A program made the translations under genes and the position numbers. This document shows positions 2,826 through 57,247 of a stretch of 64,000 bases of DNA, piece by piece. The stretch is from contig NZ_JQNF01000005.1 in NCBI RefSeq assembly GCF_000745125.1, positions 310,001-374,000 on the forward strand, read 5' to 3'. The notes beneath the pieces are model-generated. The model saw only the letters and a list, made by a program, of their open reading frames with translations. It did no database searches and was not told where the DNA came from. Each line of letters begins with the position of its first letter. Position 1 is the stretch's first letter. Source of the stretch: Carnobacterium jeotgali MS3. GTDB lineage: Bacteria; Bacillota; Bacilli; Lactobacillales; Carnobacteriaceae.

Positions 2826-3016
2826 AAGAGAAATCCGATAATGCCGTTGTTATGCTCAGTTAGTATTGAACCCGCAAGTAGCAGGTGGGCTCCGCTGTCA
2901 AACTTCTAACTACCAAGTGAAAAGGCTTGTTATCCGATTGAATCAGTTTGGATCCCAAGGTAATATTAATTGTTCGGTCAACACATGTTGAGCAAGACGA
3001 ACATCTCAGAAATCTT
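2826..3016 (-). ncRNA. ssrS: 6S RNA
   Basis: A non-coding stretch of about 190 bases directly downstream of rarA on the same strand, the usual place for 6S RNA in Firmicutes. It has its own consensus promoter (3023-3051) and an intrinsic terminator. The transcript reads GATTTCTGAGATGTTCGTC near the 5' end and CGGATTTCTC near the 3' end, with a long central region able to form the open bubble that mimics promoter DNA and binds vegetative RNA polymerase in stationary phase. Ends are estimated from the promoter and terminator. Identity rests on position, size and general layout; a covariance search would settle it. Confidence 0.78.
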
Positions 3017-34096: not shown

Positions 34097-34347
34097 GGCT
34101 CTTCGTCAAATAGTGTGAATGGTTCTAAAAATTCTTTCGGAATAGACGGATTTGCTTGTAAGAGCCCTGGTACCGTCTTAAGCCTAAAGTCTTAAGATCT
34201 TTCAAGCCTCAAACACCGCTTAAACGCTAAAGCGTTAAAGCGATATAATTCGCATTGAATACTTTACAGGGCTACAAGCAATCCTATTCCTCCAGAAGTG
34301 TTAAGCATAGACTAAATTCATCTATCTAGACTAAAAAGTATAGAGTC
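34097..34347 (+). mobile_element. Fold-back mobile repeat, copy 2 (251 bp, MITE-like)
   Basis: The same length and nearly the same sequence as the copy at 2494, starting GGCTCTTCGTCAAATAGTGT and ending CTAAAAAGTATAGAGTC. The flanks are a perfect 8-bp duplication GTTTTTTT (34089-34096 and 34348-34355). Its left duplication is the T-tract of the exporter's terminator. There is no coding capacity. Confidence 0.9.
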
Positions 34348-34427
34348 GTTTTTTTTCTATCTGGTAGTTCACAGTATAAAAAGGTACAATTGCTTAGAAG
34401 TATGAATAAGAAGGGAAGAATTTAAAT

Positions 34428-37803: not shown

Positions 37804-37844
37804 GTTAGGCAGATTTTATAAAGAAGTTAGTATAGGGTGCTGTT

Positions 37845-37961
37845 ATGCAATCTGTACAAAGAGGTTATAAAATAATCGAAGTAGATAGTAATCTCTTTAT
37901 TATTAAACACTATACAGATGAGATCTTTGAGAATGGGATTCAATGTAGAGATAGGGTGTGA
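37845..37961 (+). pseudogene. Short frame, possible remnant (38 codons)
   Basis: ATG at 37845 opens MQSVQRGYKIIEVDSNLFII and continues to a TGA at 37959-37961. A one-base shift would extend it by INTVFIEKNK before the next stop. No ribosome site stands out and no family is recognised. It is either decayed or noncoding. Confidence 0.25.
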
Positions 37962-38056
37962 TTAATACAGTATTTATAGAAAAAAATAAATAATCATATA
38001 TTCTTAGTATTATTGTAGTAAAATAGTAGCAACATACTTGAAAGGAAATTTCGAAA

Positions 38057-38480
38057 ATGGATTTTAAAAGATTAATTCTATAAATTTTCGAAAAACTACA
38101 ACGACCTTGCACAGGTGTTATTAACTGGTAATTTTAAAAAAGCTCCTAAGAGTTTTGGTAAAGATCTCTATGATGATGATTTTATGTCTAGTGAAAATTG
38201 GATACTGTTCAGTGTGCTGCTAGGAAAGAATTAAATAAAACTGAACGGCAAGAGATGCCATCTTTTATTGATGGATTATTGGGGTTTAAACCTAGTAATA
38301 TAAGGTAATAAAGTAAGCTTTTTTTATACAGACCAAGAAATTGAGTTTAATTACCTAGTAAAGAAAGTCTTTTTGAAGCTCGTTTTGAATTAGTTAAAAA
38401 AATTAATGGTTATTTTAATTCTAGTATTGACATAAAAGCACCCTCATCTTTTAATGGTAATAATATAACCCGAAACTAAT
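38057..38480 (+). pseudogene. Decayed gene with several frameshifts
   Basis: A ribosome site AAAGGAAAT and ATG at 38057 start MDFKRLIL, then stop. In shifted frames the coding signal continues: SKNYNDLAQVLLTGNFKKAP then KSFGKDLYDDDFMSSENWIL; then ARKELNKTERQEMPSFIDGL followed by LGFKPSNIR; then NKVSFFYTDQEIEFNYLVKK; then EARFELVKKINGYFNSSIDI to a TAA near 38480. At least three frame changes or stops interrupt what was once a protein of about 140 residues. I do not recognise the family. Its successive fragments abut without gaps, which argues for decay in place. Confidence 0.6.
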
Positions 38481-38677
38481 GTTTGATAATTAATTTTGTT
38501 GCATAAGATAATGAAATTCGTTTGTTAGATTGCGCTTGAAGAAGAGTAGTATGATAACTAACGTTTAGGTATCATTTGTTTTAAAATGATATTAATTTAA
38601 ATGCGAGTATAGAATTTGAGTAAACTGAGAAAAGTTATTGTAGTAATAAGTTTGTGCTTTGAGAGGAATGTGAAGAA

Positions 38678-40441
38678 ATGAGTAAGATCTCTAATCCAGT
38701 CATCTATGAAACAGATTATAGCTATGAAGCAGTGAAAAGTTTAGAAGGTGGAATTCTTCAAGAAGTAGGACCTAACGCAAAATACCTATTAGATTATCCC
38801 ACGGTTTACATCGTTCATGATGAGAAAAAGAGTCGCGAATTTTCAGTTTATATCGGAGAAACTTCTGATATAAGACAAAGAACCAAACAACATCTTATTG
38901 AAGATCCCAAAAAACGGGAAGATTGGGAAAGTCTCGCAAATTCGGATAATTCAAAAATGTACATAATAGGCCATGATTATTTTAATAAATCATTGACATT
39001 AGATATTGAAAATAAATTGATGATGTATATGTCTAGTATCGATTCGGTTCAATCTGTGTATAATCGAAGAACCAATCAACAAAAAGAGTATTATACGGTA
39101 GATAAATTAGATGAGATTTTTTCTAATATTTGGAGAAAACTAAGAAAAAAGAATAAAACTCTTTTCCCTGTTGAAAAAATAATTAAAGACTCTGCTCTAT
39201 TTAAAGCTTCGCCATTTCATAAACTAAGTGATGAACAAATCCAAGCTAAGGATAAAGTTATCTTAAAAATTATGGAGGCTTTAACGAGAAACCAGTCGGG
39301 AGAATTGATTTTAGTAACAGGAGAAGCTGGTTCAGGCAAAACAGTTTTAATGAGCAGTCTCTTTTACGAATTAAAACAGCTAGCTCAAGAAGAGTCAGAA
39401 AATATTGTTTTACAAGAAGCAAATAGTTATTTGTTGGTAAATCATGAGCAACAGTTGAAAGTTTATCAACAAATTGCAAATAAATTAGGTATTACGTCTA
39501 AGAAAGTGCCTAATTTAGTCAGTAAACCAACTACGTTTATCAATAATCATACTCCAGAGGAAAAAGCAGATGTTGTTATTGTAGATGAGGCTCATTTGTT
39601 ATGGACACAAGGTAAGCAATCTTATAGAGGAAAGAATCAACTGTATGATTTAATGGATAGAGCAAAAGTAGTAGTAGCGGTATTTGATATCAATCAAGTT
39701 CTTACTACTGAACAATATTGGGAAGAAGAGGAACTGCTTACTTTAGAACATGAGGCAAATTTAAAAGGAAATTTTATCCATTTAGAAAATCAAATGAGGA
39801 TTAACGCGAGTCAGAGCACTATTAATTGGATAAGGTCGATGATTGATGATAGAAAAATCAATCCTATTCTCAATGATATTAAAGGATATGATTTAAAAAT
39901 CTTTAATCATCCTAAAGAGTTATATGAAGCTATTAAAGAAAAAGCAAAAGATGAAAATTCAGGTATTTCCCGAATTACTGCAACATTTGATTGGGAGTAC
40001 GTTGATAAGAGGAAACCAGAAAATGATGATTATTGGAGAGTTAAGATAGGGGATTGGTCTCTACCTTGGAATCTGCAACTGCCTCAAATGAAGGAACAAA
40101 AGAGAAAGAATAGAAACCTTTCTTGGGCAGAACAAGAACAAACTATTTATGAAGTGGGTTCTACATTTACTATTCAAGGATTTGACCTAAATTACGCGGG
40201 TGTGATTATAGGTCCTTCTGTAAAATATAGAAATGGAGAAATCGTATTCGATAGAAGTTTCAGTCAAAATAAAAAAGCTACTCGTCAAAGAACATTAAAG
40301 AACGGAAAAAAAGAACAGTTTTCTGATATGTTGTTAAAAAACGAATTAAATGTGCTTTTAACAAGAGGAGTAAATGGTTTATATATTTACGCGGTAGATG
40401 AGGAACTTCAAAAAGCGCTAATAAATGCAGCAAAGGGGTAA
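38678..40441 (+). CDS. GIY-YIG nuclease fused to DUF2075 (Schlafen-type) helicase
   Basis: A 587-residue two-domain protein. Residues 40-130 form a GIY-YIG nuclease: TVYIV replaces GIY, followed by VYIGETSDIRQRTKQH with the catalytic Arg near 66 and Glu111 in DIENKLM. Residues 190-587 are a superfamily 1 ATPase of the DUF2075 type: Walker A GEAGSGKT at 215-222, Walker B VVIVDEAHLL at 299-308, ENQMRIN, STFTIQGFDLNYAGVIIGP and LNVLLTRGVNGLYIY. It probably cuts and unwinds or translocates nucleic acid. The gene overlaps or nearly abuts a MazG-like gene and lies in a variable stretch, suggesting defence; that role is inferred. Confidence 0.88.
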   Translation: MSKISNPVIYETDYSYEAVKSLEGGILQEVGPNAKYLLDYPTVYIVHDEKKSREFSVYIGETSDIRQRTKQHLIEDPKKREDWESLANSDNSKMYIIGHDYFNKSLTLDIENKLMMYMSSIDSVQSVYNRRTNQQKEYYTVDKLDEIFSNIWRKLRKKNKTLFPVEKIIKDSALFKASPFHKLSDEQIQAKDKVILKIMEALTRNQSGELILVTGEAGSGKTVLMSSLFYELKQLAQEESENIVLQEANSYLLVNHEQQLKVYQQIANKLGITSKKVPNLVSKPTTFINNHTPEEKADVVIVDEAHLLWTQGKQSYRGKNQLYDLMDRAKVVVAVFDINQVLTTEQYWEEEELLTLEHEANLKGNFIHLENQMRINASQSTINWIRSMIDDRKINPILNDIKGYDLKIFNHPKELYEAIKEKAKDENSGISRITATFDWEYVDKRKPENDDYWRVKIGDWSLPWNLQLPQMKEQKRKNRNLSWAEQEQTIYEVGSTFTIQGFDLNYAGVIIGPSVKYRNGEIVFDRSFSQNKKATRQRTLKNGKKEQFSDMLLKNELNVLLTRGVNGLYIYAVDEELQKALINAAKG

Positions 40442-40448
40442 TAAAGTG

Positions 40449-40790
40449 ATGGATAATGAGAAAAATAGTATGGAAAAGGTGAATAAATTCAGAGATGATA
40501 GAGATTGGCGTCAATTTCATAATGAAAAAGATTTAGCTATCTCTATTTCATTAGAAGCTTCAGAATTACTTGAATTATTTCAATGGAAATCAGCCGAAGA
40601 AGTAAAAGAATTTAACTTAGAACGGATCAAGGAAGAGTTAGCAGATGTATTGATTTATTCTTATATGTTGGCAGATAACCTCAATTTAAATATTGATTCG
40701 ATCATTGATGAAAAATTAAAAAAAAACAATGATAAATACCCGGTAAGTAAAAGTAAGGGGAATAATAATAAATACACTGACTTTGAATAG
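40449..40790 (+). CDS. MazG-like nucleotide pyrophosphohydrolase
   Basis: A 113-residue MazG-superfamily protein. The metal-binding signature is visible as LEASELLELFQW followed by IKEELADVLIYSYMLADNLN, giving ExxE and ExxxD on adjacent helices; DWRQFHNEKDLAISISLEA is typical of the short, RS21-C6-like subgroup that hydrolyses dNTPs or NTPs to monophosphates. The ATG at 40449 has AAAGGGG ten bases upstream; an earlier ATG at 40425 would overlap the helicase gene. It starts seven bases after the helicase stop and forms an operon with it. Confidence 0.9.
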   Translation: MDNEKNSMEKVNKFRDDRDWRQFHNEKDLAISISLEASELLELFQWKSAEEVKEFNLERIKEELADVLIYSYMLADNLNLNIDSIIDEKLKKNNDKYPVSKSKGNNNKYTDFE

Positions 40791-40803: not shown

Positions 40804-40840
40804 AAAGCCAACAAGCAGAAAATTGCTTGTTGGCTTTCTT
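40804..40840. terminator. Bidirectional terminator between the MazG-like gene and the SEC-C gene
   Basis: AAAGCCAACAAGCA and TGCTTGTTGGCTTT form a perfect 14-pair stem with a six-base loop, flanked by A and T residues. Confidence 0.9.
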
Positions 40841-40849
40841 TGTTATCAG

Positions 40850-42043
40850 TTACTTTCCGTGACATTGTTTGTATTTCTTACCGCTACCACAAGGACAAGG
40901 CTTATTTCGGCCAACTTTTTTTACTCGGATAGGTTCTTACTTTCCTGTGTTCTCATTAGTGAAAGGAACCACATTATTAGGAACGGAAGATATTCTATTA
41001 TAATTCTTAGCTATTTCTGTTGGTGTATTGCCTTTGTTTGATAATTTGCGTGAATAGTTGTTTAAGTTCAAGTAGAAGGAACTAAATTCTTCTATGTATT
41101 CAACACTATCAAAAACAATGCTAAAATGGCTGTTTAGTTCGCCAACTAGACCTTGCATGTCTAAATCCAGTTTAATATAGATCATAATCAGATCCATGAC
41201 ATCTTTAAGTTTTTGTGAATTCAACTTCTTAGCTAAAAATCGACTCATTTTTTTATACTGAACAGTTCGCTCGTCAAATTCATGGTGAGCAAAATAAGTA
41301 ATATCAGCTTTTGTAGGTTGATAGTAATCGTGGTGTGAAGAACTCAACAAGAAGTCAGGTACATTATTTTCATCTAAAATATAGTTATCAAAAATATATT
41401 CTAAGTTATCTGTAAAACGTAGTCGTTCATTAAACCAAGCTAACCCAATTAATTCAGTCAATACTTCAGTAAGGTCTAATGGGTACTGTTTGTTGTGTTG
41501 GTTCCATACTTTCAAGAAAAAGTCCGTTTCAAAAGCGCCATACAGATTCATAAAAGCCTCTACATATCCACGGAGCAGACTTTTTCTTTTATGATCTTCT
41601 TTAAAATCAGAATCATCAATAAAACTTTTCAGCATCTCTTTAGTCTCTTTTGGCAGTACTAGGGTATAGGTATCTTCGTAATAAAATAAGAATACCCAAC
41701 GGAAATGAAGCAAATCAAATAATTCTGGATTTTTGCGAGAGAAAGGAAGGAAATCGATTTCTTTTGGTCCATTCATCAATTCTTTTAAGAGGTGAAGATT
41801 TTCTTTGGGTTGATAAGATAATTGATGTTGGCTTCGTAAGGATAATTTTTTGAAAAAATCTTCAGCAATGACGGTTTTTGTTTTACTGCGACGCACTTTA
41901 TAGTTAAGGTCATCAGCTAGTGCGATCATATCTTCTTTTGAATAAGTTGTTAGGCATTCCGTGAAATAAAAGACCGGTTTATGCAAAACGATGATGTGGC
42001 CATATAGTTCATCTTGCATTTCTTGAGTGAGTTCTTCTGACAT
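40850..42043 (-). pseudogene. SEC-C metal-binding protein interrupted by an in-frame stop
   Basis: Translation from the ATG at 42043 gives 368 residues ending TNENTGK at a TAA (40937-40939). The same frame continues for 28 more codons and ends at a TAA at 40850-40852, encoding EPIRVKKVGRNKPCPCGSGK followed by KYKQCHGK, a perfect SEC-C zinc motif (CPC-x8-CH). One base change thus separates a helical protein of unknown function from its metal-binding tail. The 5' portion is rich in aromatic and acidic helices and not otherwise recognised. The intact tail suggests a recent nonsense change, a sequencing error, or read-through; the 368-residue product may still be made. Confidence 0.85.
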
Positions 42044-56962: not shown

Positions 56963-57189
56963 GGCTCTTCGTCAAATAGTGTGGCTGCTTCAAAAAATTC
57001 TTTCAGAATAGCAGGATTTGCTTGTAAGAGCCCTGGTACCGTCTTAAGCCTCAAACACAGCTTAATCGCTAAAGCGTTAAATCTGTGTCATTCACATTGA
57101 ATACTTTACAGGGCTACAAGCAATCCTATTCCTCCAGAAGTGTTAAGCATGAACTAAATTCATCTATCCACACTAAAAAGTATAGAGCC
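56963..57189 (+). mobile_element. Fold-back mobile repeat, copy 3 (227 bp, MITE-like)
   Basis: It starts GGCTCTTCGTCAAATAGTGT and ends AAAAAGTATAGAGCC. Flanking 8-bp duplications are TTTTTTAT (56955-56962 and 57190-57197), the left one in the typA terminator T-tract. It is 24 bases shorter than the other copies; the missing segment lies between two AAGCC sequences, so a slip between direct repeats explains it. The ftsW promoter lies about 60 bases downstream. Confidence 0.9.
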
Positions 57190-57247
57190 TTTTTTATCGG
57201 AATTCTCCATTAAATAGGCCATTAGGTTAAATTAGCACCCTTTGTTA

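Follow-up and report, generated by a model that had tools for sequence, protein, structure and literature searches.

A recurrent pairing of a GIY-YIG nuclease–DUF2075 helicase with a MazG-like pyrophosphohydrolase, probably an accessory defence locus

A gene for a nuclease fused to a helicase is expected to act on nucleic acid, and a MazG-like gene on free nucleotides. What function would hold the two together? This question is raised by a locus of Carnobacterium jeotgali MS3, for which a sequence-only reading had proposed a two-gene defence system. We analysed the locus within the window, a stretch of 64,000 nucleotides (contig NZ_JQNF01000005.1, positions 310,001 to 374,000), and compared it with related loci in bacteria, archaea, plasmids and phages. 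The features that make up the two-gene unit are as follows.

38678..40441, plus strand: fusion of a predicted GIY-YIG nuclease with an SF1 Schlafen-group-3 (DUF2075) helicase, 587 aa (ORF, Pfam, alignment, model)
38798..39067, plus strand: predicted GIY-YIG domain, residues ~41–130 (Pfam, invariant residues)
39215..40438, plus strand: SF1 helicase domain, residues 180–587, with a UvrD-/SLFN11-like fold (Pfam, model)
39320..39343, plus strand: Walker A motif, residues 215–222, including Lys221 (sequence, alignment)
39584..39595, plus strand: Walker B/DEAH-type motif, residues 303–306 (sequence, alignment)
40432..40438, plus strand: likely ribosome-binding site of the MazG gene, AAAGGGG, within the end of the helicase gene (sequence)
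40449..40790, plus strand: MazG-like (PF12643) enzyme of the dCTP-pyrophosphatase type, 113 aa; the mechanical ORF starts at 40425
40804..40837, plus strand: intrinsic-terminator-like hairpin of 15 pairs, closing the two-gene unit

The two genes and their predicted active sites

The helicase part of the 587-aa protein is readily recognized, since PF09848 (SLFN-g3 helicase) scores 326.9 bits against a cut-off of 24. The AlphaFold2 model of the whole protein has a mean pLDDT of 90.0 and a pTM of 0.85, and near the top of the VIA-align matches to its helicase part are UvrD (Z 21.2), Deep-Sea Helicase 9 (19.1) and SLFN11 (18.3). Both human SLFN11 and human SLFN14 are among the matches (Z 14.7–18.3). 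The N-terminal domain scores 21.9 bits with PF01541 (GIY-YIG), 0.7 below the cut-off of 22.6, and this family is matched at E<=0.01 in 56 of 62 relatives, at best with 1.2e-7. PDB profile searches gave weak matches to T4 endonuclease II (E 0.036) and I-TevI (E 0.094). The match list from a fold search with the whole model was filled by the helicase part, so the GIY-YIG call is carried by conserved residues, Pfam and these weak profile matches.

Conservation was assessed across 78 relatives longer than 530 aa, the window protein counted in. Six residues of the GIY-YIG domain (Y44, Y58, G60, R68, H72 and E111) and eleven of the helicase (G215, G218, G220, K221, D303, E304, H306, Q340, R374, Q500 and R563) are invariant in all 78. 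The earlier description of a GIY-YIG/DUF2075 helicase, with Lys221 and Glu111 as key residues, is thereby upheld. Its choice of Arg66 as catalytic residue has to be given up: position 66 is arginine in only 6 of the 78 relatives and position 68 in every one, which identifies R68, and not R66, as the predicted catalytic arginine. Pfam searches of the window protein found no AlbA-type Schlafen RNase core among 20 families at E<=0.01, and neither PLD nor DUF3427; the helicase is of superfamily 1. The search of the window protein showed no domain for reading DNA modifications, and its residues 41–48 contain no third motif tyrosine.

The MazG-like ORF scores 87.8 bits with PF12643 (cut-off 27). Among PDB entries it matches a pyrophosphatase best and RS21-C6/DCTPP1 next; the alignment to the latter covers most of the MazG length (E 9.2e-17). 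In the numbering of the 121-aa form that starts at 40425, all 56 linked MazG proteins share the metal ligands of the ExxE and ExxD motifs (E44, E47, E71 and D74), and likewise W28, H32, W54, Y78 and K97. The tightly linked MazG-like protein of the sequence-only reading is confirmed. W28, E44, E47 and W54 align with W47, E63, E66 and W73 of RS21-C6, which we take to line the active site. By these comparisons the MazG partner appears closest to the dCTP pyrophosphatase DCTPP1, and the earlier idea that the pair alters nucleotide pools would narrow to a dCTP-type substrate. Judged by their conserved residues, both proteins of the pair look catalytically intact.

The 121-aa MazG ORF overlaps the helicase gene, whose stop codon is at 40439–40441. 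The ATG at 40449, giving 113 aa, appears the likelier start; it lies behind AAAGGGG, so that MazG would be translated immediately after the helicase. Three terminator-like sites were found, compared with a mean of 1.1 in shuffled sequences, and a promoter scan gave no signal (16 sites, against 15.2 in shuffles). Adjoining MazG, at 40850–42043 on the minus strand, is a gene for a 368-aa protein that ends in one TAA and is followed in frame by a cysteine-rich, SEC-C-like tail. The relatives in G005, G002 and G015 have no such TAA and their reading frame continues, and the window copy therefore looks truncated. Elsewhere in the window lie a 6S RNA gene (2828–3015, minus strand) and three intergenic repeats, ~90 bp long and almost identical, each with a T-run at its end (34262–34352, 57102–57192 and ~2660–2752). 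Partial copies of the repeats occur by the dozen in the rest of the genome, and the repeats matched no Rfam family at the gathering threshold.

Linkage and distribution of the pair

If helicase and MazG work together, their genes are expected to recur side by side. We surveyed 395 genomes of the order and found a helicase match (E<=1e-10) in 129 and a MazG match (E<=1e-6) in 181. A first set of loci comprised 74 near-full-length helicases and the window (75 genomes), and six plasmid loci brought it to 81. Partial helicase matches were excluded from the 75 genomes, and four of those excluded (G043, G239, G103 and G084) have an adjacent MazG; one near-full-length match within the 75, G229 (L170), carries stop codons in the helicase. 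At 58 of the 81 loci MazG and the helicase are no more than 400 bp apart (MazG 45 times downstream, 10 upstream, 3 divergent), and at one further locus MazG is found at 601 bp, beside a broken helicase. The remaining 23 loci of the 81 have no MazG within 400 bp. Counted by genome, 18 of the 75 have none within 700 bp of the helicase; MazG was present elsewhere in 7 of these and not found in 11. A second set, which overlaps the first, consists of 80 named loci from Bacillota, Actinomycetota and one Bacteroidales MAG. Of its 79 scorable loci, 55 have MazG within 400 bp (29 downstream, 18 upstream, 8 divergent).

No MazG was found beside nuclease-less, helicase-only DUF2075 genes at any of 20 control loci, drawn from the upper part of the helicase-only match list. 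On a quick tree of 80 proteins, the arrangement of the two genes changes at least 25 times and the presence of MazG at least 15 times. Repeated reordering with adjacency kept argues for function rather than inertia. The helicase–MazG linkage is real and unusual and the pair is recurrent, and the co-occurrence across genomes that had been put forward as a check of the defence proposal held in both sets.

The pair was also predicted to be accessory, and the comparison within the genus agrees: the helicase is present in 3 of 6 genomes, and the two genes are not part of a genus-wide core. In the sister genome G003, one segment of the window is replaced by 12 other base pairs between the flanking matches.

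37814..40764: segment missing from sister genome G003

The G003 flanks match the window up to 37813 and again from 40765. The right-hand match starts inside the 3' end of MazG, which makes a deletion scar likely, and G003 has likely lost the segment by deletion. In G005 the slot is occupied by ~1.2 kb of other DNA (L298:2856-4051), and G001 has a helicase 38% identical to that of the window with MazG alongside in divergent orientation. G015, from another genus, carries a MazG 88% identical at the same right-hand flank; no helicase match was found within its 18-kb region. Plasmid-borne copies of the pair's helicase exist. Viral relatives are few (5 of 27 and 5 of 17 pattern matches, 4 phage records), which indicates that the helicase is not chiefly a phage gene.

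A second nuclease domain and a parallel module

Distant DUF2075 proteins from Priestia, the archaeon Halalkalicoccus, a Microcystis phage and viral contigs also have MazG within ~50 bp. Their N-terminus carries an invariant D, an ExK and a QxxxY in place of GIY-YIG. The model of this alternative N-terminus (pLDDT 84.8) gave nothing below E 0.17 in Foldseek. Its VIA-align matches (Z <=7.3) are mostly Can2, Kpn2I, EndoMS, Shedu, AspBHI and MspJI, all of which we take to be PD-(D/E)XK nucleases. The NERD family of Pfam matches it weakly, and a PDB profile search returned no PD-(D/E)XK match. The domain is likely PD-(D/E)XK-like, mainly by its invariant D, ExK and QxxxY.

This N-terminus with MazG within ~50 bp was seen at L199, L200, L203, L288 and L289. 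The plasmid and phage examples were partly picked because MazG sat on the same record, and a phylum sample of 398 genomes, 14 of them with matches, serves as the unbiased check. Among its nine loci of the PD-(D/E)XK type (L321–L329), MazG lies within 600 bp at five, at ~1.1 kb at one, and is absent from three. Two broken or fragmentary loci of this sample (L330, L333) have no MazG, and two of the GIY-YIG type (L331, L332) both have it. MazG often stays where a PD-(D/E)XK-like domain replaces GIY-YIG, in an archaeon, a phage and Clostridia.

The commonest additional genes linked to the pair encode a ~960-aa PLD-SF2-DUF3427 protein, which is SauUSI-like, and a NUDIX protein. The four genes lie on one strand in the orders NUDIX-Sau-MazG-Hel, NUDIX-Sau-Hel-MazG, Hel-MazG-NUDIX-Sau and MazG-Hel-NUDIX-Sau. 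DUF3427 occurs in 146 of the 395 genomes of the order, and a SauUSI-like helicase lies within a few kb of the GIY-YIG helicase in 7 of the 75 genomes, where 0.17 are expected (Poisson 8e-10, or 3e-8 if two congeneric cases are counted once). At 20 DUF3427 loci away from the helicase, hand-picked to span families, NUDIX is found within 200 bp at 17 and an adjacent MazG at none. At G000:C10:570608-571423 (L301), the genome that holds the window also encodes a SauUSI-like DUF3427 helicase, with a NUDIX gene next to it. Two nuclease-helicase families that are unrelated to each other thus each have a partner pyrophosphohydrolase, and the partners differ in fold as well.

The NUDIX partner scores nearly equally as MutT and NudG, both below the NCBIfam cut-offs, and a MutT heads its PDB matches; by sequence it is NudG/MutT-like with no clear winner. 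The activity of NudG and MutT is treated in PMC3744803. Hydrolases of 5-methyl-dCTP are described in both pyrophosphohydrolase families, namely Orf135/NudG and RS21-C6/DCTPP1 (PMC10742078; PMC7162842; PMC3744803), and 5-halogenated and 5-formyl forms are added to the hydrolysed nucleotides in PMC7162842. For DUF3427, the relation to SauUSI has led to the prediction that it binds modified DNA (PMC7159879).

Enrichment near defence genes had also been anticipated, and it stands in part. The link to SauUSI-like helicases is one side of it, and restriction or CRISPR genes adjoin several plasmid copies. Copies of the pair lie beside a restriction-modification cluster (L006), type III CRISPR genes (L005) and a restriction endonuclease (L007). 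The near neighbours of helicase loci are mostly metabolic genes. When 144 nearest neighbours at the named loci were contrasted with 115 farther ones, PADLOC families matched at E<=1e-12 numbered 187 near and 80 far (families, not distinct proteins), and no family occurred at more than 3 of the 144 near neighbours. This contrast is weak, and a general defence-island enrichment is not claimed.

An MrcB_N-HNH protein is found beside the DUF2075 helicase at two loci only, L009 (Paenibacillus) and L199 (Priestia). The name of the MrcB_N domain is linked to modified-cytosine restriction. Two further arrangements were observed. A 600-aa SIR2_2-domain protein (L142:7161-8963) is encoded just downstream of a GIY-YIG helicase without MazG, and Nocardiopsis offers a further pairing of MazG with a nuclease, in overlapping genes for a MazG-like protein and an HNH endonuclease at a distance of 3.6 kb from a DUF2075 helicase (L204:10871-12231).

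Proposed role and comparison with known systems

A defence role of the pair is probable. In its specific form, an accessory module against foreign DNA in which a type-IV-like nuclease-helicase is joined by a sanitiser of dCTP or modified dCTP, we give the proposal an even chance of being right. The helicase would translocate on DNA and the N-terminal GIY-YIG domain would cut. The analogy with the SauUSI–NUDIX module suggests that the nuclease-helicase most likely attacks modified DNA, and its target would then be foreign DNA with modified bases. MazG would be a DCTPP1-type pyrophosphohydrolase that destroys dCTP or, as we think more likely, C5-modified dCTP. Destruction of modified dCTP would starve a modified-DNA phage of a building block and would also keep such nucleotides out of host DNA, sparing the chromosome from self-targeting. 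In favour of this proposal are the linkage kept through changes of gene order, the invariant catalytic residues, the swap of the nuclease domain, the parallel SauUSI–NUDIX module, the 5-methyl-dCTP hydrolases of both enzyme families and the example of CMoRE, a GIY-YIG type IV enzyme. The 18 of 75 genomes without a nearby MazG, and the occurrence of MazG without the helicase (181 vs 129 of 395 genomes), count against it, as do the weak PADLOC contrast, the failure to find a modification-reading domain in the window protein, the NUDIX scores that hardly separate MutT from NudG and the three of nine PD-(D/E)XK-type loci without MazG.

Type IV restriction has no cognate methyltransferase, and the usual explanation is that modified bases are absent from the host. 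If the proposal is true, a dedicated dCTP sanitiser would be a distinct self/non-self mechanism combined with an active attack on phage precursor pools, and widespread proteins whose annotation goes no further than 'DUF2075 domain-containing' or 'nucleotide pyrophosphohydrolase' would gain a function. Only tentatively do we extend it to a general class of restriction plus sanitation, in which modification-dependent nuclease-helicases are each coupled to a pyrophosphohydrolase that destroys C5-modified dCTP. Its conceivable members, named with the same reserve, are GIY-YIG-SF1, PD-(D/E)XK-SF1 and PLD-SF2-DUF3427 proteins with MazG or NUDIX, of unrelated folds. Immunity in such a class would come from pool cleaning and not from a methyltransferase, with self-targeting prevented and modified-DNA phages starved.

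It is possible, if unlikely, that MazG is instead a starvation effector: the nuclease-helicase would sense or damage phage DNA, and MazG would degrade canonical dCTP until phage replication stalls. Defences that deplete dNTPs are known, and the MazG partner is DCTPP1-like. DCTPP1 also hydrolyses dCTP itself (PMC7162842). However, in many genomes a MazG-like gene occurs by itself and under no obvious control, an indication of a non-toxic housecleaning enzyme, and the NUDIX partner of the SauUSI-like helicases points to sanitation over depletion.

A role in DNA repair or genome maintenance, with the nuclease-helicase processing damaged DNA and MazG removing damaged dNTPs, is distinctly unlikely. 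The helicase fold is nearest to UvrD by VIA-align, MazG and NUDIX are classic sanitation enzymes and the neighbours are mostly metabolic, but a repair function fits poorly with the scattered occurrence within the genus (3 of 6 genomes), the plasmid copies, the links to SauUSI-like and other restriction genes and the swapping of the nuclease domain.

An RNA-targeting defence like that of Schlafens, in which the SF1 domain acts on RNA or tRNA and GIY-YIG cuts it, is very unlikely. The Pfam domain is named after Schlafen group 3 and the model matches SLFN11 and SLFN14; against this, the 20 Pfam families that match the window protein at E<=0.01 include no Schlafen RNase core, and GIY-YIG and PD-(D/E)XK are as a rule DNase folds. 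Finally, that MazG is an unrelated passenger beside a single-protein nuclease-helicase is barely credible: 23 of 81 loci do lack it within 400 bp and it does occur alone, as in G015, where an 88% identical copy occupies the same site, but gene order changes repeatedly with adjacency kept, MazG recurs with another nuclease in archaeon, phage and Clostridia, and none of the 20 helicase-only loci has it.

The preferred reading, a nuclease-helicase against foreign DNA with a dCTP-type sanitiser, can be set beside catalogued and described systems. The pair matches no system of PADLOC-DB 2023, where the best score is 34.3 bits, to part of the helicase, and MazG has no match. A literature search that left most subscription papers and preprints outside found no paper joining DUF2075 with GIY-YIG, nor any joining DUF2075 with defense and pyrophosphohydrolase; searches on DUF2075, MazG, GIY-YIG and pyrophosphohydrolase found no description of the helicase–MazG pair. 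What is already known is GIY-YIG type IV defence: CMoRE is described as a GIY-YIG type IV restriction enzyme against 5hmC phages (PMC12923530).

Like the window protein, the anti-phage CMoRE fuses an N-terminal GIY-YIG nuclease to another domain, but it is a single component with a C-terminal 5hmC-sensing domain and a third motif tyrosine (PMC12923530), whereas the window protein has a C-terminal SF1 helicase, an added MazG and no third tyrosine in residues 41–48. Schlafens (SLFN11, SLFN14 and bacterial ones) share the PF09848 helicase family, and the SLFN11 fold match reaches Z 18.3; the window protein differs in lacking the Schlafen RNase core, in having GIY-YIG in that place and in its MazG partner. 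The MazG partner keeps the ExxE and ExxD acids and the two tryptophans of human DCTPP1 and mouse RS21-C6, but is bacterial and operonic with a nuclease-helicase. The MrcB_N-HNH proteins are likewise a recurrent neighbour of the DUF2075 helicase family, but as a separate protein. The SauUSI type differs in the folds of its nuclease and pyrophosphohydrolase, in the superfamily of its helicase and in carrying the DUF3427 domain, which is absent from the window protein. In common with the pair, it has a nuclease fused to a helicase with a small NTP pyrophosphohydrolase adjoining (17 of 20 loci), and it sometimes lies in one island with the GIY-YIG helicase–MazG pair.
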